Below are positions 4,668 through 18,310 of a stretch of DNA of 60,012 nucleotides, one piece after another. The DNA lies in the NCBI GenBank assembly GCA_029261395.1, contig JAJDBJ010000039.1:1-60012 (forward strand), in the 5' to 3' direction. Each line of letters opens with the position of its first letter. Position 1 is the first letter of the stretch. The notes beneath the pieces are model-generated. The model worked only from the letters and a program-made list of their open reading frames with translations. It did not search any database and was not told the origin of the DNA. This DNA is from Nitrospinaceae bacterium (GTDB lineage: Bacteria; Nitrospinota; Nitrospinia; Nitrospinales; Nitrospinaceae). The position numbers were made by a program, and so were the translations under genes.

Positions 4668-5807
4668 TTAAAACCCGTCGAGGAACTCGCCGTAGCCTTC
4701 GGCTTTCATCTTTTCCACTGGCACAAACCTTAAAGACGCAGAGTTGATGCAATAGCGCAGTCCCGTCGGTGCCGGGCCGTCCTCGAAGACATGACCGAGA
4801 TGCGACTCTCCTTGCTTTGATCGGGCTTCGACACGGGTCATGAAAAAGGATTTGTCGGTTTTGGAATAGACGTTCTCTTCGACTAAAGGCCGGGTGAACG
4901 ACGGCCATCCGGTTTTCGAATCGAACTTGTCCTTAGAGCTGAATAACGGCTCACCCGAAACGATGTCGACATAAATGCCGTCCTGATGATTATCCCAGTG
5001 CTCATTCTTGAAGGGCGGCTCCGTGCCTTCCTCCTGGGTGACCTTGTACTGGAGCGGGGTCAGCTTTTTTTTCAGCTCAGTCGTGTCGGGTTTGGTGAAC
5101 GTTCCACTCCCCTGACCCATACCTGCAGGAGAGTAGTCTTTATCCGGGCCCCAGGTGTTGTCGATGTACATATCCCGGCCGGAACCCCGGCGGTATCCCT
5201 TGTAGTGCGAGGTGCTCTTCTTGTAAAAATCCTGATGATACTCCTCGGCGGGATAAAACGCGCTGAACGGGGTGATCTCGGTGACGATGGCCCGGTCGAA
5301 CCGTTTACTCGCTTCCAGTTTCTTTTTGGAATCGAGAGCCTGCTGTTTCTGCTCGTCGCTATGATAAAAAATTCCCGAGCGGTATTGGCTTCCCCGATCG
5401 ACAAACTGTCCGCCGCCATCGGTCGGGTCGATGTTCCGCCACAATACTTCCAGAATGTCCGGGTAGGAAATCTGCGCCGGATCGTAATGCACCTGAACAG
5501 CCTCGGTGTGTCCGGTCATGCCATGCGCCACCTGCTCGTAGGTGGGATCTTTTTCAGGGCCGCCGGTATATCCGGAAATGACTTTGTAAACTCCCGGCAA
5601 TTGTTCAAAGGGGGGTTCCATACACCAGAAACAACCCCCGGCTAATGTTGCGATCTCTAAATGTTCCGGCATGGGTTTGGCTACCTTTTGTGTAAGATTT
5701 TTCTGTTTGTCAGAAGAACTGAAACCGTTTGCAGACATCATCACCGCAAACACAATCAGGCCGAACAGAATTATATAATAAGGGGTGTCGCTTTTCTTGA
5801 ATTTCAT
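4668..5807 (-). CDS. msrAB: Bifunctional methionine sulfoxide reductase MsrA-MsrB
   Basis: Reduces both the S and R epimers of methionine sulfoxide, repairing oxidised proteins. An N-terminal hydrophobic segment (about residues 9-25) anchors or exports it, so it probably works outside the cytoplasm. The MsrA domain (about 50-205) has the catalytic GGCFWC motif, Cys59. The MsrB domain (about 245-375) has GWPSF and the catalytic Cys353 in RYCINS. The CxxC zinc pairs of many MsrB proteins are absent. The thioredoxin-like domain of Neisseria PilB is also missing, so an external reductant is needed. ATG 5807 is chosen because GGAGGT lies just before it. A sigma factor and NrsF-like anti-sigma lie upstream on the same strand, suggesting membership of an oxidative-stress regulon. 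Confidence 0.95.
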
Positions 5808-5909
5808 GAAGTACCTCCACATATTGCAATGGTGCGGGAAATCCCCCGGCTCATATTTTAGTTGCCGATAAAGTCGCCGTGAAGGAAAACTCCTTACACC
5901 AGAGTCATT

Positions 5910-7626: not shown

Positions 7627-8184
7627 GTGAATCGCCGGTGGCAATTCTTCCTTATATGGGCAGTGGTGATACTTTGCGCGTCTCCCGTATCAGCGGCTGA
7701 AGATGCCATGCCCAAAACGTTTAAGGGGAGCGATCCCAAAGGCTGGCACCAGTTTCAGTGGCGGATGACCAAGACGCAGGCGTTGCAAAAGGGCGCGGAA
7801 CCGTTCGTCGACTCAGCGGGAGACAAACGCTTCGGCCTGCCTTCGGTGGAACTGTTACCGGGCAAAACCTTTCAGGTGCGTCTGGAGTTTTTTTCGTCTA
7901 TGGGACTGCACTCGGTTCGGGTGACCCTCACTCCGCAGGCAGAGTGCGCGACCGATGTTTACGATACTTTATTAAAGGATTTCCGGGAGACGCACGGCAA
8001 AGAGATGGAAACTCGGGATCTCACCTATCCCAACGCGTATTATAAAAGCCACGACTGGATTGTGGGCTCCACCAAAATCGTCCTGCATCACGGCTGTCCC
8101 AAGCCCGGCAAAGCCACAGCCACACAACCCACCACCCACATCTGGTACGAAAAACGCATGGAATTCGAACCGTGGAACAGGTAA
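7627..8184 (+). CDS. Exported hypothetical protein (185 aa)
   Basis: From GTG 7627 the protein opens with an NRR n-region, a hydrophobic core (about residues 6-18) and a cleavage site near SPVSAAEDA, i.e. a Sec signal peptide. The mature part (about 160 residues) mixes beta strands and has a cysteine in QAECATDVYD and another in HHGCPKPG. GTG 7627 is preferred to the earlier ATG 7528 because it opens the signal peptide and because TAAGGAGG lies 6 bases before it; that ribosome-binding site is part of a repeat palindrome. The frame upstream would translate repeat DNA. No family recognised. Confidence 0.7.
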   Translation: MNRRWQFFLIWAVVILCASPVSAAEDAMPKTFKGSDPKGWHQFQWRMTKTQALQKGAEPFVDSAGDKRFGLPSVELLPGKTFQVRLEFFSSMGLHSVRVTLTPQAECATDVYDTLLKDFRETHGKEMETRDLTYPNAYYKSHDWIVGSTKIVLHHGCPKPGKATATQPTTHIWYEKRMEFEPWNR

Positions 8185-8202
8185 GAAGGCCTACTGTGTA
8201 GA

Positions 8203-8724
8203 TTAAAAGCTTACTCCTTTTGACCCATCATGAATTACAATGAGCTCACTATTAATTCTATTTTGGTATTCTTCGTTATTTTGTACTTCAGTTTTTGCCC
8301 ACTCCTCTACTGAATTTGCCATGTCTAGGCAAAATATATCAACTTGTAACTGCAAAGCATTATTAAACTGATTGAGATGCATCAGGCCACCTGATTTAGG
8401 AGGATCTATAAAAAGAAAATCGCTTAGTGCTTGTCTAGCTCTTTGGTTTTCTATGTTTGAGCCTCCTTGATGTAAATAAGAACAACGTAACGCGTAACAG
8501 TCTTCCCCGCGTAAAAATATATGTTCCTCCCTATCGGGCCCTAAGTAAGATGTATATTTTTTTAGCATGTATCTATTGTACCAGTTCACGTATCTAGGTT
8601 TTGAGTCTTGCTCTGGCGATTCAATGCTACCGCATATATCTGGTAATGTTAGTGCCACAGGCAATGCTCCATACCAGTTTTTATTTTCTACTGCTATCTT
8701 TATAGCATTAGTAAATCTTTCCAT
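8203..8724 (-). CDS. Hypothetical protein with HEPN-like motif (173 aa)
   Basis: A helical soluble protein of a widespread uncharacterised type: an N-terminal AIKIAVENKNWYGALPVAL segment, LPDICG, then DCYALRCSYLHQGG. The latter contains Arg-x4-His, the spacing of HEPN ribonuclease active sites. ATG 8724 follows AAGGAA; longer in-frame extensions to 9054 run antisense-like through the upstream ynfA-type gene and are rejected. It lies 50 bp downstream of the YnfA-family gene on the same strand. Base composition is AT-richer than neighbours, suggesting horizontal origin. A role in defence or stress is only a guess from the motif. Confidence 0.68.
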   Translation of the reverse strand: MERFTNAIKIAVENKNWYGALPVALTLPDICGSIESPEQDSKPRYVNWYNRYMLKKYTSYLGPDREEHIFLRGEDCYALRCSYLHQGGSNIENQRARQALSDFLFIDPPKSGGLMHLNQFNNALQLQVDIFCLDMANSVEEWAKTEVQNNEEYQNRINSELIVIHDGSKGVSF

Positions 8725-8774
8725 AAATATTCCTTCATTATCTATACAGCGTTCGAAATTTGAATGTCGTTGCT

Positions 8775-9104
8775 TTAAATCTGTGTCCGGGGTCCGAATA
8801 AGATGATTGCCGCGCCGAGGAGGCAAATGACCGATCCCGCCACATCCCATCGGTCCGGGCGCTGGCCTTCGACCGCCCACAACCACAGCACCGAGGACGC
8901 AATATAGACGCCGCCATAAGCGGCAAACGTTCGGCCCGCAAAAACGGAGTCGATCCGGGTAAGCAACAGCGCAAACACTGTCAAAGAGATCACACCGGGA
9001 AGCACCCAGTAAACGCTTCGGCCCAATCGCAACCAGGCCCAGAAGGCGAAGCACCCGCCAATTTCGGCAAGCGCCGCGGCACTATATAGAATAAACGAAG
9101 GCAT
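8775..9104 (-). CDS. YnfA family (UPF0060) membrane protein
   Basis: A 109-residue inner-membrane protein with four hydrophobic helices. It begins with a membrane segment containing [16 protein letters not shown], the hallmark of UPF0060/YnfA, and contains the family's [16 protein letters not shown] segment. YnfA proteins resemble small multidrug resistance transporters in size and topology, but their substrate is uncertain. Length and N-terminus match the family, supporting ATG 9104. It may be co-transcribed with the HEPN-like gene downstream. Confidence 0.93.
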
Positions 9105-9232
9105 GATTTGAGAAGAGTTGGATTATTATTAAAGTGTCGTTCCTGAGGAAAGATTATAGACGGGTTCGGGGCGCTTTGCCACTGCGCCGGGAGGGTTTGA
9201 CATCCCGTGAGCCGTTGCATACAGTGGGTCAT

Positions 9233-9694
9233 ATGATATATATCTATCTTAAGTGGGTGCATATTCTGAGTGCGATGCTATTGCTGGGCACGGGGTTGGG
9301 GAGTGCGTTTTATGCGGCGCGTGCGAACCGTACGGGCAATCTCGCTGTGATGCGCTTCGTGATGCGCAACGTGATTCTTGCCGACTGGTTGTTCACCGTG
9401 CCGCCGCTTGTGCTTCTTCCGGTGACCGGTGTGTGGCTGATGCGCATCAATGGCTACCCATTTTCTACCTTGTGGCTCTGGCTGTCGCTGGTGTTGTTCG
9501 GGATCGCCGGGTTGTGCTGGCTTCCGGCGGCGATTCTGCAATATAAAATGAAAGCGCTGGCTGAGCAGGCCCCTGATAAAGAGCGCCTGCCTGCGATCTA
9601 CTGGAAATACGAACGCATCTGGTCGTTACTCGGCGTGGCTGCCTTCCCGGCGGTGGTCGCCATTTTCACTCTCATGATATTCAAACCGGGATAA
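9233..9694 (+). CDS. DUF2269 family integral membrane protein
   Basis: A 153-residue protein with four membrane helices; the first helix begins MIYIYLKWVHILSAM and carries the WxHILSA histidine segment characteristic of DUF2269 (and reminiscent of copper/haem membrane proteins). ATG 9233 begins exactly at the first helix; the longer in-frame start at 9134 would add a basic 33-residue leader without family support. It ends 5 bp before the pentapeptide-repeat gene, so the two are probably one transcript. Function unknown. Confidence 0.8.
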   Translation: MIYIYLKWVHILSAMLLLGTGLGSAFYAARANRTGNLAVMRFVMRNVILADWLFTVPPLVLLPVTGVWLMRINGYPFSTLWLWLSLVLFGIAGLCWLPAAILQYKMKALAEQAPDKERLPAIYWKYERIWSLLGVAAFPAVVAIFTLMIFKPG

Positions 9695-9699
9695 ATACT

Positions 9700-10185
9700 A
9701 TGGATCGCGAGCAGGCCGAGTCGTCGAAGTACGATTTGCAGAAGGCCAACCTGATGGGCAAGCATCTGGAGGGGGCGGACCTCTCCGGTGGTGACCTTTC
9801 GGGGGCTAATATGAGAAAAGCCAAACTGGCGGGCGCGAATTTGAGAGGAGCGAAACTCCATAAGACGCCGCTCAGCACGGCGGATTTATCGGGCGCTGAT
9901 TTGTCCGATGCCGACCTCTCCGGCGCGGAATGTATTGCCACTAATTTCACGGGTGCCAACTTGTCCGGGGCACAATTTGATCGCGCCTCGGTGAGCAAGG
10001 CCACTATGACTGACGCCAACCTGAAGGGCGCCGATATGAGTTACGTGATCAACCTCACCTGCCAGCAGTTGCAGTCGGCGCACATTGACCGGACTACCCG
10101 CCTGCCGGATTACATCACCCTGAAATGGCGCTCCGACACCGAGTACGACTGCGGCGATCGCGTCCAGCGCATCGGCGAAGCGTAA
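9700..10185 (+). CDS. Pentapeptide-repeat protein
   Basis: A 161-residue protein with about 18 tandem A(D/N)LxG-type pentapeptides (about residues 20-120), which fold as a right-handed quadrilateral beta-helix. A C-terminal segment (LTCQQLQSAHIDRTTRLPD) recurs in the pentapeptide protein at 11625 (LTAEQLKEIYSDENTQLPP), so the two are paralogues. There is no signal peptide. Biochemical roles in this fold range from DNA mimicry to scaffolding; nothing here decides. Located 5 bp after the DUF2269 gene. Confidence 0.92.
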   Translation: MDREQAESSKYDLQKANLMGKHLEGADLSGGDLSGANMRKAKLAGANLRGAKLHKTPLSTADLSGADLSDADLSGAECIATNFTGANLSGAQFDRASVSKATMTDANLKGADMSYVINLTCQQLQSAHIDRTTRLPDYITLKWRSDTEYDCGDRVQRIGEA

Positions 10186-10447
10186 GCGCCCGAGTCCCAT
10201 CCAGAATCCGACCTATCTCTATGAAAAATAAGGAATAAATATTTTGAGGAAGGCCTTGCTTTTGGGTGCAGGCATCTTATATTTGTATCAGATGAAATCG
10301 ATGTCTGGGGATAGGTCAAGAGACTAAGCCATACCCCGGTTCAGTCTGGAGAATCCTTGGAAAAATGTTTGGGGTATCCAACAACCGACATCAGTCGTTC
10401 ATTTTTATGGGGCATCAAAAAAATTCTTTTTTTAGGAGTCCTGTTCA
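10186..10447. other. Gap with one possible 27-codon frame
   Basis: 262 bp without a clear gene. TTG 10244 opens a 27-codon frame (to TAA 10327) starting MRKALLLGAGILYLY, preceded by AAGGAAT at eight bases; it may be a hydrophobic micro-protein or chance. The rest presumably contains the promoter of the exported protein at 10448, but no convincing -35/-10 pair was found. Confidence 0.25.
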
Positions 10448-10759
10448 ATGAAAAAATTAATGAGTGTTGTCAGTATCTTTGTATTGAGTTTATTTATGGG
10501 TTCCGCTTATGCCGCTGAACCTCCAATGGAGGAACCTACTTTGAATCCATCACAAGTTTTGGAGCCAATGGAAGCAACTGAGGAAAGTGGTTCCGCGCTC
10601 GATAGGTTTGCGGTATGGCCGTTCGAATCCATTGAGAAGAAATCCCAGGAAGAAACAGCCGGGGCCATTGACAATGTAAAAATGGACCAGTCTGTGGATG
10701 ATGATGGGAAGACTCACGACGTGATTGGGATTGATGATCCGAGTGTTGAGTCGGACTGA
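10448..10759 (+). CDS. Small exported acidic protein, DRxAVW family, member 1
   Basis: A 103-residue protein with a clear Sec signal peptide (MKK start, hydrophobic core to about residue 21, cleavage near AYAAEPP). The mature part is acidic and probably disordered, with no cysteine. It shares two motifs with the next gene: DRFAVW here versus DRHAVW there, and DNVKM here versus DHVKM there. An AGGAG ribosome-binding site sits ten bases before ATG 10448 and a strong terminator follows at 10846, so it is a monocistronic, probably well-expressed message. Family not recognised; a periplasmic role is inferred from the signal peptide only. Confidence 0.78.
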   Translation: MKKLMSVVSIFVLSLFMGSAYAAEPPMEEPTLNPSQVLEPMEATEESGSALDRFAVWPFESIEKKSQEETAGAIDNVKMDQSVDDDGKTHDVIGIDDPSVESD

Positions 10760-11624: not shown

Positions 11625-12035
11625 ATGCTCGAAAAAATTCTGGAAGATCACGCTTTATGGTTTCGCACCAAAGGCCGGGAAGGCGACCGCGCTATTCTGA
11701 ATGGCGTGGATCTGAGCCTGGCGGTGCTGAAAGACGCTTGTCTGGTGGAGGCGGAACTGATGGGCGCGCGCCTCAACGATGCCGACCTGCGCGGGGCCGA
11801 TTTCCGGGGCGCCAATTTGCAGGATTCAAATCTTGCCGGGGCGCAACTCCAGAATGCCAACTTTGAAGAGGCGGACCTCATGATGGCCGATTTCAAAGGC
11901 GCTCAATTGAAAGGAACGCGGCTCGCGGGTGCTTATCTGCACGGTGCCGATTTGAGTGAAGCGCACGGCCTGACCGCTGAGCAATTGAAAGAAATTTACT
12001 CCGACGAAAACACGCAACTCCCGCCCGGCCTATAG
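11625..12035 (+). CDS. Pentapeptide-repeat protein
   Basis: A 136-residue protein with about 15 pentapeptides of the A(D/N)LxG type (about residues 24-112), a short polar N-terminal cap (MLEKILEDHALWFRTKG) and a C-terminal LTAEQLKEIY-x6-LPP segment shared with the pentapeptide protein at 9700. No signal peptide. The two pentapeptide genes bracket the two small exported genes, all on the plus strand. Base composition is GC-rich like the first. Function unknown. Confidence 0.9.
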   Translation: MLEKILEDHALWFRTKGREGDRAILNGVDLSLAVLKDACLVEAELMGARLNDADLRGADFRGANLQDSNLAGAQLQNANFEEADLMMADFKGAQLKGTRLAGAYLHGADLSEAHGLTAEQLKEIYSDENTQLPPGL

Positions 12036-12438: not shown

Positions 12439-13707
12439 ATGCAGATTACCGGTATGTTATGGGGACGTAAGCTGTTGGACCTGGTGGAGTTCCCTCGGTC
12501 TGAAGTACGTGGACCCGAAGCCAGCGTCGAAGAAATCAAGGCAATGATCAAGAAACACAAGCAACTATTCATCAAACCGTTTTTCAAGGGAGGCGTCGGG
12601 AAGAAAGGCAAGTCCGGTTTGATCGGGCGGGTCGACAATCTCCAGGACGCACTCAAAGAAAAAGAGCGGTTGTATTTCGCAACCCATCAGGACGGTAACC
12701 GCATCACCAAATCCAACGGCGTCACCTTTGAAGGCGGCGTGCCTGCGGATCACGAAATCTATTTTTCGATTACGGACAGCACCGTGTACCGCACACCCTG
12801 CATGACCATCACCCATCACGGCGGAGTGGATATTGAAGAACTGCCGCCGGAAAAGCTGGCAGTGGTACCGTTTGATCCGTTGACCGGCCTGAAATCATTT
12901 CATGTCTCCAACGCTTTGGACAGTCTCGGAGCGCCGAAAGAAATTATCAGTCCGCTGGTGCAGAATCTGCCTAAGTTGTGGGACTTGTACAACAACTACG
13001 GAATGTTGATGCTGGAGCTCAATCCCATTCGCATGTTCAACAACGGTGGCCGTCTCACTCCGGTGGCGTGCGATTTTAAATGTGCGTTCGATCAAGACGA
13101 TCCGGCGTGGAAACGCCTGCATCTGCCGGACGATTTGTTCGCTTCCGACGATTCGGAATTCGAACAGGAGATCAACCAACTCCGTACCTACCAGGGGCAG
13201 AGCGACGTGTTCGTCATCAACGATGAGGGGACGATTACCGCGCCGACCTTCGGCGGTGGCGCCAATGCCATGGTGACCGAATTGCTGGGTGAGGACGCAA
13301 CCATATCTTCCGATTTCGGCGGCAACCCTCCGTATGTCAAGATGAACGACATCTCCAAGATTACCTTCAAATACTGGCTACCGCAGTCGAACGTACTGTT
13401 CATCATCGGTGGTAAAGCGAATAATACGGATATTTTCGAAACCTTTCGCGCCATGGCCGATGGTATCAAATGGTATTTTCAGCAACACGGTCCACAGCCT
13501 CTGTTTGTAGTGGTGGGACGTGGCGGACCCAACCTGATCCGGGGTATGGCGTACTTGCGCGACACGCTCGATTCGCTGGGAATACCGTACCGCTTCTTCG
13601 GTCACGACAGCGCCATGTCGGAAGTGATCAATTATGCGCGAGCAGTCAATCGCTGGATGAAGAACGGCGGCAAGGAAGAAATCAAGAAATCTTTGAATAT
13701 CAAATAA
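12439..13707 (+). CDS. aclB: ATP-citrate lyase, small (ATP-grasp) subunit
   Basis: With the next gene it cleaves citrate to acetyl-CoA and oxaloacetate using ATP and CoA, the key step of the reverse TCA cycle. This 422-residue subunit is the succinyl-CoA-synthetase-beta-like half: an ATP-grasp fold (FIKPFFKGGVGKKGKSGL near residue 40; MLELNPIRM near residue 190) and a C-terminal CoA-ligase-type flavodoxin-like domain (FGGGANAMVTELLGEDA to the end). Length is close to the first 425 residues of animal ACLY. GGAG lies shortly before ATG 12439, and it is 42 bp from the large-subunit gene. Cytoplasmic. The subunit letter follows bacterial two-gene usage. Confidence 0.93.
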   Translation: MQITGMLWGRKLLDLVEFPRSEVRGPEASVEEIKAMIKKHKQLFIKPFFKGGVGKKGKSGLIGRVDNLQDALKEKERLYFATHQDGNRITKSNGVTFEGGVPADHEIYFSITDSTVYRTPCMTITHHGGVDIEELPPEKLAVVPFDPLTGLKSFHVSNALDSLGAPKEIISPLVQNLPKLWDLYNNYGMLMLELNPIRMFNNGGRLTPVACDFKCAFDQDDPAWKRLHLPDDLFASDDSEFEQEINQLRTYQGQSDVFVINDEGTITAPTFGGGANAMVTELLGEDATISSDFGGNPPYVKMNDISKITFKYWLPQSNVLFIIGGKANNTDIFETFRAMADGIKWYFQQHGPQPLFVVVGRGGPNLIRGMAYLRDTLDSLGIPYRFFGHDSAMSEVINYARAVNRWMKNGGKEEIKKSLNIK

Positions 13708-13749: not shown

Positions 13750-16461
13750 ATGCATAAAGAAGGAGTCGCAGGTTTCCCTTATTACTTAGGGGTTAATTCA
13801 TTGTCCGAGTTGGCGACCAAGGATGACAAAGTCGTTGTTTTTAATATATTGGGAAAAGAGAGTTCCGGCGTCACTCCGGTCAGTCATGAGTATTCCGGTG
13901 GGAATATTGTGTTCGGAACCGGACCCGGTAAATCAGGAAAATCCCTGTCGACCAAAGCCGGGAAAATCCCTGTATACAATTCTATTCAGGAAGGCATGGC
14001 CGCCGGGCATGAGTTCAATACCGCAGTCGTGTATCTGCCGCCATCCGGAGTAAAAGATGGTGTTGCGGAAGCGGTACGCTGTAACCCGAAACTGAAGAAG
14101 GTCATTGTCCTCACGGAAAAAGTATCGGTCAAGGATTCACGCGTCATGCGCGCCATCTGTCAGACCAATGGCGTCGATCTGTTCGGCGGTAACTGTCTGG
14201 GCGTGGCCGATTCCTGGAACCATGTCCGTCTCGGCGGAGCATTGGGAGGCAACCACCCGGAAGAATCTTTGATCAAGGGTTCAGTGGCGCTGTTCTCCAA
14301 CTCCGGAAACTTTACGACCACCATTGCCGTGTACCTGTCGACGGCGGGTTGGGGCACCACCACCTCCATTTCCAGCGGCAAGGATGTTTACATTCACTAC
14401 GGTCCCCAGGAATTTATTCACGCGTTCAATAACGATGATCGCTCCCAGGCTTCTATCGTGTACTGCGAGCCCGGCGGATATTACGAACACGGCCTCAAAT
14501 CCGACAAGCCAATCATTGCCTGCGTGGTAGGACGCTGGAAAGCCAAACTGACCAAGTCTTGCGGACATGCCGGCTCGTTGTCCGGTTCCGGCGACGATGC
14601 GGAGGCGAAGGAAAAATGGTTCATGGACTATTTTGGAGTGAAGGATATTTATACGCCTGAAAATCCGGTGTTCTCCAAGAAAGGCGCGCTGGTCACCAAC
14701 ATTGCGCACATTCCGGAAGCGTTGACCGCAGTGATGAAGTTGAACGGTAAGAAACCGGACTTCGAACCGAGAGGCAACTTGTCCCTGAAATGCTGGTTTG
14801 GCAATAACAACGGGGCTGTCCTTCCCAAAGAGTTGGATGTTCAGCAGGTGGAGGCCATCGATCCCTACAACGGGCAGATCGATGCGCTTAAACAACAGGT
14901 CGGTGCGCAGGTCAGTCGTGAAACTTTGAAAGACGCCAGTGGTGCCTCCAAGATGGACCCGAAGACTCAGGTTTCTCAGATTCACAATGTTTCCATTCTG
15001 GACGCGTCCAATAAAACGTTTGAGGACAACCTGGTGTTCGCGCTGACTCACAGTTACCCCAGCGCTTCAGGAACGTCGATGGCGAATGCCGTGCTCAACG
15101 CCTATGTCAATCTCCACGGTCAACCGGCATTGGCGGCGGCGACGGCTTCTCGCGAGGCGGGCAACTCTCCCAACACCGTACAGGCAGGGGCAGTGTCCAT
15201 TATTGGTAAAAAGAAAGCGCAAAAGGCGATGGATGCCGCAGAAGCTCTGCTCGATATTTTTAAGTTGACCGACTTGAACGATCCTGAAGGCACGTTCGAT
15301 TACAAGTCTCTAGTCAAAGGTGCTTCGGGTCACAAAGACGCTCTTCTGGGTGTGGCGGCAGATCCCAAAGCGGCGAAAGTTCTGGATGTTTGTAAATCCA
15401 AGAGTAAATCGGTCTTCATCGATTTTCTGGTGGATTTTGCCAAGGAACAGAAGGGCCACGTTTCCATGGACTCCATTGTGGCGGCAGTATGGGCCACGTT
15501 GGCCTGGCCGAGTCTGCGGTCTAAAAAGATTTCCAAGACTACGCTGGTGCGTCTTCCCTGGTACAGCCTGATCTACAGCACCATGGTGGGTGTGGCGGCT
15601 CCGGAAGGCAAACATGGCGCCGACAGCTTTTGCGGAGTCAAAAACGACGATCTGCTCACCAACAGCTTCACCCGCACTGCATTTCTTTCCCTGATGGGAC
15701 GGGATGCTTCGGAAGGGGAGTTATTTGAGTTCCAGGTACTGCTGGGTCTGATTATCACCAACGGTCCCGGTACCATTTCGGCTCAGGGTTCCAAGGGTGC
15801 GGTCAGTGCTGACGGTCCGGAACAGCCGGACCGGGTTCAGGTCAACAAAGGTTTTATCGGTTTTCTGACCCATACCGGATTCGCCCACGGCGGGAACGGA
15901 TACGAAGCGGCGGCGTTTCTGATCGACCAGTTCAAGGACACCGCACTGAAAGATCCGGCCGATGCCAAACATGGCGTCGATCTGGAAAAGCTGGCGGTGG
16001 ATTACGCCAAGTGGTACGGCGCTTATAAACAGGAGCAGAAAGGTCTTGGCCACCTGGAATATGCCAAGATTCCCTGCGTCAACCATCCAGTGTTCAAGGG
16101 CAAAGACGTCAACGTCGATCCGCGTGAAGAGTATGTCAGCAAACTGTTCAAGGACAAGGGGCTGTACAACGTGTTCCTCGATTTCTACCATCACCTGGTG
16201 GAAGGGCTGTTCAAGGCCAAGGTGACGAAGAACGTGTACTGCGTCAATGTCGATGCCGTCATCGCGGTGATCCTGCTCAAGATGCTGTGGTCGGATTACA
16301 AGAAGGGGTCGATTAAAGAGGAAGATATTGAATGGGCCAGCTTTATGGCGTTCCTGTTCGGCCGGATGATCGGTTGTGCGGCGGAAATCGACGACCACAC
16401 CAACCGGGGCAAGAACATGGATACGCGTACCCCGGCGAGCAAGGTGACATACGTCGGATAG
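13750..16461 (+). CDS. aclA: ATP-citrate lyase, large subunit, enlarged form
   Basis: A 903-residue subunit. Residues 1-340 are succinyl-CoA-synthetase-alpha-like, with the phosphorylated His273 in SCGHAGSLSGSG. The C-terminal 340 residues are citrate-synthase-like: GPGTISAQGSKGAV, FAHGGNGYEAAA, a catalytic-type His779 in CVNHPVF, and VYCVNVDAVIAVILLKML. Usual two-gene AclA proteins are about 610 residues, so about 290 extra residues lie mostly between the two halves (about 390-620). This matches what I recall as the second ACL type of some reverse-TCA bacteria. GGAGG precedes ATG 13750 and a strong terminator closes the operon. Confidence 0.93.
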   Translation: MHKEGVAGFPYYLGVNSLSELATKDDKVVVFNILGKESSGVTPVSHEYSGGNIVFGTGPGKSGKSLSTKAGKIPVYNSIQEGMAAGHEFNTAVVYLPPSGVKDGVAEAVRCNPKLKKVIVLTEKVSVKDSRVMRAICQTNGVDLFGGNCLGVADSWNHVRLGGALGGNHPEESLIKGSVALFSNSGNFTTTIAVYLSTAGWGTTTSISSGKDVYIHYGPQEFIHAFNNDDRSQASIVYCEPGGYYEHGLKSDKPIIACVVGRWKAKLTKSCGHAGSLSGSGDDAEAKEKWFMDYFGVKDIYTPENPVFSKKGALVTNIAHIPEALTAVMKLNGKKPDFEPRGNLSLKCWFGNNNGAVLPKELDVQQVEAIDPYNGQIDALKQQVGAQVSRETLKDASGASKMDPKTQVSQIHNVSILDASNKTFEDNLVFALTHSYPSASGTSMANAVLNAYVNLHGQPALAAATASREAGNSPNTVQAGAVSIIGKKKAQKAMDAAEALLDIFKLTDLNDPEGTFDYKSLVKGASGHKDALLGVAADPKAAKVLDVCKSKSKSVFIDFLVDFAKEQKGHVSMDSIVAAVWATLAWPSLRSKKISKTTLVRLPWYSLIYSTMVGVAAPEGKHGADSFCGVKNDDLLTNSFTRTAFLSLMGRDASEGELFEFQVLLGLIITNGPGTISAQGSKGAVSADGPEQPDRVQVNKGFIGFLTHTGFAHGGNGYEAAAFLIDQFKDTALKDPADAKHGVDLEKLAVDYAKWYGAYKQEQKGLGHLEYAKIPCVNHPVFKGKDVNVDPREEYVSKLFKDKGLYNVFLDFYHHLVEGLFKAKVTKNVYCVNVDAVIAVILLKMLWSDYKKGSIKEEDIEWASFMAFLFGRMIGCAAEIDDHTNRGKNMDTRTPASKVTYVG

Positions 16462-16530: not shown

Positions 16531-17049
16531 TCAGCGGAACCGGTCGACCTTGAACCGGTATATTTCTATGGGCTCGTCATCGGGAATTTTTCCCTTGGCC
16601 CGACATATTTGGATTTGTTCTTCGATTGAGTCCACCCCTTCCAGATCGGGCAGTAACACCCCCTGTTTGCCATTGCTTCGCACCACCAGACCGTAAATTT
16701 TGGGGTCCAGTGCAGACGCATCGGGAACCTTCTCCAGAGGTCGCACCACGTCGATGGAGTACGTCAGGTCCTGTAGCTCTTCCGGAGTAATGGGGGAGAA
16801 CCTGGGGTCGTGCAGAGCCGCCTTGAGAGCGTTTTCGATGATCTCCATTGCCAGGTTGGGTTCGCACGGTTCCAATGTGCCGATACACCCGCGCAGTTGC
16901 CTCAGTTTCTTGATCGAAACAAAAGCACCGGAGCGCGAATTCAGGTCGGTTGAAAGGGGGCTGGGGCAGGATAATTTTTTACTGAAGTTCAGGTAATGAT
17001 GAATCGATTCCTGCGCCAATGATACATAAGGATGTTGAAAGGTTCCCAT
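16531..17049 (-). CDS. AMMECR1 domain protein
   Basis: A 172-residue AMMECR1 protein carrying the invariant LRGCIGTLEP motif (around residue 48) and the typical FSVH-like 'DVVRPLEKVPD' segment that follows. ATG 17049 is chosen because GGAGGT lies directly before it; upstream in-frame extension to 17334 would overlap the prenyl-synthase gene antiframe. In many prokaryotes AMMECR1 occurs with MEMO1 and a radical SAM gene; neither is adjacent here, though a radical SAM protein exists at 38453. Enzymatic activity is unknown. It lies about 100 bp downstream of the polyprenyl synthase gene on the same strand. Confidence 0.88.
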   Translation of the reverse strand: MGTFQHPYVSLAQESIHHYLNFSKKLSCPSPLSTDLNSRSGAFVSIKKLRQLRGCIGTLEPCEPNLAMEIIENALKAALHDPRFSPITPEELQDLTYSIDVVRPLEKVPDASALDPKIYGLVVRSNGKQGVLLPDLEGVDSIEEQIQICRAKGKIPDDEPIEIYRFKVDRFR

Positions 17050-17146
17050 ACCGACCTCCATGCAGAGGATCTCTATATCCTTAAGGTAGGCCCAAGACAC
17101 GGAATCCGCAACCGCTAAATTCCGATATGGGATATAAATCAGATAT

Positions 17147-18166
17147 TTAGAGCTGGGTGCTGTTTGCCAGCGTGGCTTTGGAGAGGGTGTGGCGGCTGAC
17201 GATGTAATCGGCGACGGCGAGTAGTGCGGCTTTGTATTCCGGTTTGGGGAATGTCGTGGTTTGGATGGCTTCTTTCGCGCGGTCCATATGTTTGTGGGCT
17301 TGATCCAGAGTGTACTCCAGAGCCTTGCCCCCACGCATGCGGTCCAGAATATAATCCAATTCCTTGCGCGTCAGTTTGTCGTTCTGGATAAACTCCTCGA
17401 TTTCCTGCTTCAGCCCGTTTTTGGAATGATGGTATAGGTGATGGAGCGGCAAGGTGACATGTCCCTCCTGAAAATCATTGCCCACAGGTTTTCCCAGCTT
17501 TTCCGGTGTGCTGTCATAATCCATGAGGTCGTCCATCAGTTGGAACGCCATGCCGAAATGTTCCCCGAAAGCCAGCAGAGCTTCTTCCTGTTCTTGATCC
17601 GCCTCAGCGATCAAGCCACCCAGTTGGCAACTCAATGACAGGATGGATGCGGTCTTTCGGTAAATCACATCCATACAGTGTTTTTCGGTGACATGGATGT
17701 CCCGCGCGTTGGAAAACTCCAGCAAGCCGCCCTCTACCAGAAGCTTGGCCGCCTTGGAGAAGGCTTTGAAAATTGCGGGGTTGACATCATCGGAGAGCAG
17801 GGTCAGCGATTGGGCGATCAGGTAATCCCCGACCAAAATGCTGGCATCGTTGCCCCATTTGGAATTGACGGTTTGGCGACCGCGACGGACAGTGGTTTCG
17901 TCCACCACATCGTCGTGCAGGAGAGTCGCGGCGTGGACATTTTCGATCACGCAACAGTGTTTGATGAGCGCATCGTTCAATTCCAGGCCGCACAGGCGCG
18001 CGCCAATGAGCATGAGCAGGGGCCGGATTCGCTTGCCGCCTGAACTCATGATGTATTCCCCGATTCCGGGAACAATAGGGATATCGGAAAGGAAGTTGTC
18101 TTTCAGCGCCCGATCGACTTTTTCGAGGTCGGGTCGGAAGAGCTGGGTGACTTCTTTATAATTCAT
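17147..18166 (-). CDS. Long-chain polyprenyl diphosphate synthase
   Basis: Condenses isopentenyl diphosphate units onto an allylic primer to build the side chain of a quinone. Both aspartate-rich motifs are intact: DDVVD (in LLHDDVVDE) and DDLMD (in QLMDDLMDY). The 339-residue length matches IspB/HepS-type synthases. The product length cannot be read by eye, although small residues before the first DDxxD suggest a long chain. ATG 18166 has GGAGAG seven bases upstream; two earlier in-frame ATGs lack this. A menaquinone or ubiquinone precursor is the expected product. Confidence 0.92.
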   Translation of the reverse strand: MNYKEVTQLFRPDLEKVDRALKDNFLSDIPIVPGIGEYIMSSGGKRIRPLLMLIGARLCGLELNDALIKHCCVIENVHAATLLHDDVVDETTVRRGRQTVNSKWGNDASILVGDYLIAQSLTLLSDDVNPAIFKAFSKAAKLLVEGGLLEFSNARDIHVTEKHCMDVIYRKTASILSLSCQLGGLIAEADQEQEEALLAFGEHFGMAFQLMDDLMDYDSTPEKLGKPVGNDFQEGHVTLPLHHLYHHSKNGLKQEIEEFIQNDKLTRKELDYILDRMRGGKALEYTLDQAHKHMDRAKEAIQTTTFPKPEYKAALLAVADYIVSRHTLSKATLANSTQL

Positions 18167-18310
18167 AGTGTGACTCTCCATGGGTGCCCCCTTTGTGAAA
18201 CTTTTAATCATGGGCTCCACAGGCGACCGGGACCAAGGTCGCGACTACCTCTAATTCAACCACATTTTGTTCGCAAAGGTGTTACTAATATGGGAAAATC
18301 GCTACTTTGT

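Follow-up and report, generated by a model that had tools for sequence, protein, structure and literature searches.

ATP-citrate lyase (ACL) is the enzyme by which the reverse TCA cycle is typically recognised. In the type I enzymes, such as Chlorobium AclA (6hxj) and human ACLY, a succinyl/citryl-CoA-synthetase alpha-like (ASH) half with a phospho-histidine is followed directly by one citryl-CoA lyase/citrate-synthase-like (CSH) domain. For the human enzyme a homotetrameric CSH core has been argued, as has an allosteric function of the module through the binding of CoA or acetyl-CoA (PMC10115795). Citryl-CoA synthetase (CCS) and citryl-CoA lyase (CCL) are, by contrast, separate enzymes, and such a pair is attributed to Leptospirillum in PMC3578206, which refers to Hugler 2007 and Levican 2008 for it. 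A preliminary description of the locus presented here had named Leptospirillum among the relatives to be compared, which on this account was mistaken.

The name 'type II ACL' is credited to Hugler and Sievert 2011 in the papers that cite that work (PMC3522073, PMC5459899, PMC6783814). Members of this class are found in the symbionts of Riftia, Tevnia and Lamellibrachia, in Magnetococcus (Mmc1_3638/3639) and in Thioflavicoccus mobilis, where they are encoded by two genes in the order aclB–aclA, and they are, like the enzyme described here, of low similarity to type I. In the tubeworm-symbiont and Thioflavicoccus clusters the aclAB genes are also accompanied by fumarate-reductase genes (PMC6315080). 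An ACL of very low similarity has been noted in Nitrospina gracilis (PMC3578206) and is probably of type II; the Nitrospinae are described as outnumbering all other known nitrite oxidisers in the oceans (PMC8026999). The enzyme class is therefore known already, and it is the duplication of the lyase domain that is apparently without earlier description, none having been found in the open-access literature, the type II papers included, although other literature could hold one.

The window, by which we mean the whole stretch of 60,012 nucleotides that was analysed, is contig 39 of a 2.9 Mb genome. It carries an aclA gene adjoined by a single aclB, and the aclA frame opens with an ATG at 13750 and closes with a stop at 16461 on the + strand, with no internal stops. 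The features of the pair are as follows.

12439 to 13707, + strand: aclB-like gene, 422 aa, ATP-grasp plus citrate-binding domain, directly upstream of aclA
13750 to 16461, + strand: aclA, encoding the 903-aa large subunit of a type II ACL, in which two domains are lyase-like
13750 to 14658, + strand: residues 1–303, the ASH half (PDB 6hxq_A, 9e-28)
14566 to 14568, + strand: codon of the phospho-histidine His273
14659 to 14940, + strand: residues 304–397, linker, modelled with low confidence over most of about 339–395
14941 to 15600, + strand: residues 398–617, the insert or copy 1, a degenerate CSH domain (AF2, Foldseek, hhalign)
15160 to 15177, + strand: residues 471–476, GNSPNT, a motif kept in copy 1 and lost in copy 2
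15601 to 16458, + strand: residues 618–903, copy 2, the lyase domain retaining the catalytic residues (NCBIfam citryl-CoA lyase 3.5e-10 at 638–903)
15757 to 15789, + strand: residues 670–680, TNGPGTISAQG, with Asn671 at the position of type I His900
15886 to 15900, + strand: residues 713–717, HGGNG, with His713 at the position of the second citrate-synthase histidine, which is Phe in type I ACL
16084 to 16125, + strand: His779 (ACLY His975) to Arg792 (ACLY Arg986)
16252 to 16254, + strand: Asp835 (ACLY Asp1026)
16363 to 16428, + strand: Arg872 (ACLY Arg1065) to Arg893 (ACLY Arg1085), C-terminal tail, absent from copy 1

The preliminary description had presented this protein as an enlarged ACL large subunit of a second type, 903 residues long, and both the intact frame and the assignment to a two-gene type II enzyme stand. 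So do the two motifs that it had read, CGHAGS with His273, which corresponds to the phospho-histidine loop GHAG of type I ACL, and NHPVF with His779, neither histidine varying in any of the 45 relatives aligned. The extra length had been placed between the two halves at about residues 390–620, and this holds with the limits refined to 398–617. Compared with a type I AclA of 623 aa (L161), the protein has about 280 extra residues: the insert accounts for 220, the N-terminal half together with the linker for about 37, and loops of the lyase end for about 23; the idea that standard AclA might share the extra length falls away, as type I AclA is without the insert. Two parts of the description needed revision. 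The insert, which it had left unexplained, is by our comparisons a degenerate, duplicated citryl-CoA-lyase domain, and it is because of this duplication that AclA is so long. The remark that such enzymes belong to a few reverse-TCA bacteria proved too narrow, as 542 stretches match AclA in one genome scan and full-length relatives also occur in 'Deltaproteobacteria' MAGs and on rhizobial and Burkholderiaceae plasmids. Type I ACL and the window AclA share the order of ASH half and CSH domain and the equivalents of His975, Arg986, Asp1026, Arg1065 and Arg1085, but differ in that one CSH domain follows the ASH half in the former and two in tandem in the latter.

Predicted fold and profile comparison both show the insert to be a second CSH domain, in tandem with the C-terminal one. 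Structure prediction was run on the insert alone (398–620, with 45 natural sequences as the alignment), and AF2 returned a confident CSH-fold model with a pLDDT of 92.1 and a pTM of 0.87; in the model of full-length AclA the ASH half is weak, with a mean pLDDT of 72. A Foldseek search of the PDB with the insert model placed citryl-CoA lyase 6hxp first (E 1.2e-5), followed by ACL lyase modules (6nzy and 6qcl, TM 0.65–0.66), from Chlorobium as well as human ACL, and then by citrate synthases, all 50 listed matches having the citrate-synthase/CSH fold. In hhalign, copy 1 matched the single CSH domain of a group of 690-aa relatives with a score of 125 (Prob 99.1) and copy 2 with a score of 71 (Prob 96.6), the best score among 60 column-shuffled controls being 27; citryl-CoA lyase was matched at Prob 84, and the SCS half, at a score of 16, gave no match. 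BLAST of copy 1 alone against the single domain of the 690-aa relatives gave 6e-13. Profile matches among PDB sequences have citrate-synthase-like sequence begin at residue 617. A sub-profile comparison using close relatives alone, in which 412–597 resembles 628–858 (Prob 69), is suggestive, and the citryl-CoA lyase model touches copy 1 in the deeply diverged relative L124 (5e-5). Self-comparison of the insert revealed no internal repeat.

The 690-aa AclA-like proteins (L122:2796-4868, L123:3057-5129 and L128), each beside an aclB, were found in genomes of the phylum to which L077 belongs (the 'Deltaproteobacteria' group). They resemble the window AclA in order, N-terminal half, linker and active-site signature, but have one CSH domain and are without the second copy; that single domain carries both the GNSPNT-type motif and HGGNG, which in AclA are split between the copies. 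These proteins are colinear with residues 17–617 and match again at 633–898, where the second alignment of the L122 CSH domain has 39% identity. A fused ACL of Planctomycetes, treated as an intermediate in PMC5459899, is possibly similar to this form. The 690-aa relatives look like candidates for the pre-duplication state, with an ancestral form and a secondary loss both fitting, and they offer candidate intermediates for evolutionary reconstruction.

A maximum-likelihood tree built from CSH domains has copy 1 as one clade (100/98), copy 2 as another (100/99) and the single-domain proteins as a third. Together the three are separated from CCL and from type I ACL (100/99), a result that, with the adjacent aclB, agrees with the understanding of type II ACL as a two-subunit enzyme distinct from type I and from CCS/CCL. 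The split of L037 and L124 from the rest recurs in both copies, so the duplication took place once, before that split. When topologies were compared, branching of the single-domain proteins before and after the duplication fitted alike, and an origin of copy 1 from CCL (p 0.03) or from type I ACL (p 0.048) was weakly rejected, these p values needing caution because of the long branches in the tree. The original type II members were compared with the window AclA solely through the two peptides, VAKEEWF and NGFEAIA, into which the published type II primers translate; these read EAKEKWF (285–291) and NGYEAAA (716–722) in the window and IVKEEWF and NGFEAVQ in the relative L037, a good match for both as protein sequence; against the window DNA the forward primer has 6 mismatches and the reverse primer matches no better than shuffled primers.

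Two readings would deny the insert this identity. That the enlarged AclA is an artefact of assembly or of gene fusion, the latter named as a possible objection in the preliminary description, has a negligible probability; no support for it was found, and it is refuted by equal AclA length in dozens of independent genomes. Genomes of the same genus have a full-length, open-frame AclA at 87–91% identity (the records at this level being mostly Nitrospinaceae, Nitrospina or Nitrospinota, and one Nitrospirota), full-length frames are also present in the single-contig genomes G008 and G017, and an AclA match occurs in 31 of the 31 genomes of the phylum that pass a filter of at least 90% completeness and at most 5% contamination; the 903-aa length is therefore real. 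An unrelated accessory domain, helical by chance, would accord with the lack of a Pfam family at 398–617 of the window protein, where Pfam and NCBIfam searches of the protein alone gave no clear family for 304–637, and with the failure of the insert profile to match a citrate synthase or lyase among PDB sequences. As the sequence profile alone matches no solved citrate synthase or lyase, copy 1 can be recognised only through its fold or through intermediates, but a CSH domain is the common result of the fold search, of the profile comparison with its shuffled controls, of the tree and of the single-domain intermediates, and these contradict an unrelated domain, which we regard as very improbable.

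To compare the two CSH copies, the residues of both were mapped to human ACLY numbering and conservation was counted over 45 aligned relatives. Copy 2 carries the citrate-synthase His, His, Asp, Arg catalytic set (His713, His779, Asp835, Arg792 and Arg872), and these residues, together with Arg893, are invariant (45/45). A further citrate-synthase histidine is Asn671 in copy 2, again in 45/45. Relative to type I, copy 2 has Asn671 for His900, His713 for Phe935 and Pro780 for Arg976, and at the position of His713 citrate synthase and one CCL likewise have His. Type I ACL and the enlarged-AclA clade each lack one of the two histidines of citrate synthase, and not the same one: His900 is kept in type I, where the other is Phe935, and His713 in the enlarged-AclA clade, where the other is Asn671. 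For genome surveys, two CSH domains combined with Asn671/His713/Pro780 provide a signature by which the enlarged enzyme can be told from type I.

In copy 1 the GH loop (the His975 loop) is deleted, the C-terminal tail is gone, the HGG histidine is replaced by Lys489, which varies among relatives, the Arg1065 equivalent is Thr611 and the Arg986 equivalent is also lost. Residues S473, P474 and N475, which correspond to GNSPNT of the single-domain form, are retained in 45/45, and among plasmid-borne and the most deeply branching relatives the motif takes the form N-[SA]-P-N or CTPN; in the model they lie at a helix start beside the former active site; the N-[SAT]-P-N motif is gone from copy 2 even in the most distant members. 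Mean column conservation is 64% in copy 1 vs 79% in copy 2, 18/220 vs 91/286 positions are invariant, and dN/dS within the genus is 0.091 vs 0.054; copy 1 evolves faster than copy 2, yet it is clearly under purifying selection. As judged from its residues and its model, copy 1 is catalytically dead, with its fold and one motif retained.

The partner subunit and the surroundings of the genes bear on the substrate. AclB matches the Pfam families ATP-grasp_2 (1e-15) and Citrate_bind (1e-14), and its closest solved structure is the citryl-CoA synthetase large subunit 6hxq_B (3.9e-29). Among solved structures, CCS and CCL come nearest to AclB and the ASH half and also, as far as fold is concerned, to the insert, but where those are separate enzymes the window AclA is fused and has its lyase domain doubled. 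The ANNT and RGGPN segments of AclB align with ANFT and RRGGPN of human ACLY, which we take to line the citrate site. AclB is the sole Citrate_bind gene in the window's genome, and one such gene each was found in 28 of 28 high-quality genomes of the window's order. As the genome also has one citrate synthase, and a separate citryl-CoA lyase was looked for in it and not found, aclBA is the only citrate-cleaving candidate found. A search of the same genome for 2-oxoacid:ferredoxin oxidoreductase families gave only below-cut-off matches at several loci, and such scattered matches say little.

Among the relatives, a four-gene cluster (L124:2611-9841) has the order aclB–aclA–frdA–frdB, the last two encoding the fumarate reductase flavoprotein and iron sulfur subunit, as expected for the reverse TCA cycle. 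Plasmid-borne AclA (L165–L169, at about 8001–10700; NZ_CP069358.1, NZ_AP023183.1, NZ_CP133152.1, NZ_CP071131.1 and NZ_AP023181.1) is full-length and 53–55% identical, and is carried by large plasmids in Microvirga, Sinorhizobium, Paraburkholderia and Caballeronia. Both CSH domains and their motifs are retained in all five of the five copies read, and the annotation, where there is any, is 'CoA-binding protein' only. In Microvirga the plasmid encodes a two-component system and a tripartite tricarboxylate transporter within a few genes of aclBA, a context that points to citrate as a possible substrate outside autotrophy too; the Sinorhizobium plasmid cluster has a PrpF-type isomerase gene and ring-cleavage-type dioxygenase genes instead.

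We consider it likely that AclA is a type II ACL large subunit in which copy 2 is the lyase and copy 1 a non-catalytic tandem duplicate within the CSH core. By homology to citryl-CoA synthetase, AclB and residues 1–303 would use ATP, His273 and CoA to form citryl-CoA. Copy 2 (618–903) would then split citryl-CoA into acetyl-CoA and oxaloacetate, or would govern the split allosterically after the manner of human ACLY, and copy 1 would most likely serve as a non-catalytic structural or allosteric building block of the core. With two CSH units per chain, AclA2B2 could build the four-unit core for which type I uses four chains. Citrate cleavage by AclAB is what the homology predicts, but the chemistry is not simply transferable from human ACLY, because copy 2 is without the type I His900 and Arg976. 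A half-dead tandem lyase of this kind is a natural test in the debate on whether the ACL CSH module is catalytic or allosteric.

Other workings can be proposed for the same domains. Copy 1, its identity not being in dispute, could be a sensor CSH domain whose binding of CoA, acetyl-CoA or citrate serves to regulate the enzyme, in line with the allosteric argument for the human CSH module through CoA/acetyl-CoA (PMC10115795), with the invariant S-P-N motif beside the former active site and with the purifying selection on copy 1; as copy 1 has lost the Arg1065 and Arg986 equivalents and the His975 loop and has few invariant residues, we hold this role to be possible but somewhat improbable. The two copies of one chain might instead form an asymmetric pseudo-dimer of the citrate-synthase type, the dead copy supplying residues in trans to a single working site, and they do complement each other, in that the histidines and the tail are kept in copy 2 and the N-[SAT]-P-N segment that caps a helix in copy 1, but the proposal is a doubtful one. 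It is quite unlikely that the enzyme acts on some other tricarboxylate or hydroxy-acid, with Asn671, His713 and Pro780 reflecting that other substrate. Such a substrate would fit an active-site signature unlike that of type I ACL and partly unlike that of CCL, as well as the relatives on plasmids of heterotrophs, including the one beside the isomerase and dioxygenase genes; against it, AclB retains the citrate-site segments, the pair is the sole ACL-like one in every high-quality Nitrospinota genome checked, one relative lies in the aclBA–frdAB cluster and another beside the tricarboxylate transporter, and citrate cleavage was detected in Magnetococcus MC-1, whose sole gene pair of this sort is type II-like (PMC6783814).

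Other genes of the window include two for pentapeptide-repeat proteins close upstream of aclBA (9700–10185 and 11625–12035) and a methionine sulfoxide reductase A–B fusion (4668–5822, - strand). An AMMECR1-family ORF and a polyprenyl synthetase ORF (16531–17334 and 17147–18220, - strand) overlap by 188 bases, and the true start of the AMMECR1-family ORF is probably later.
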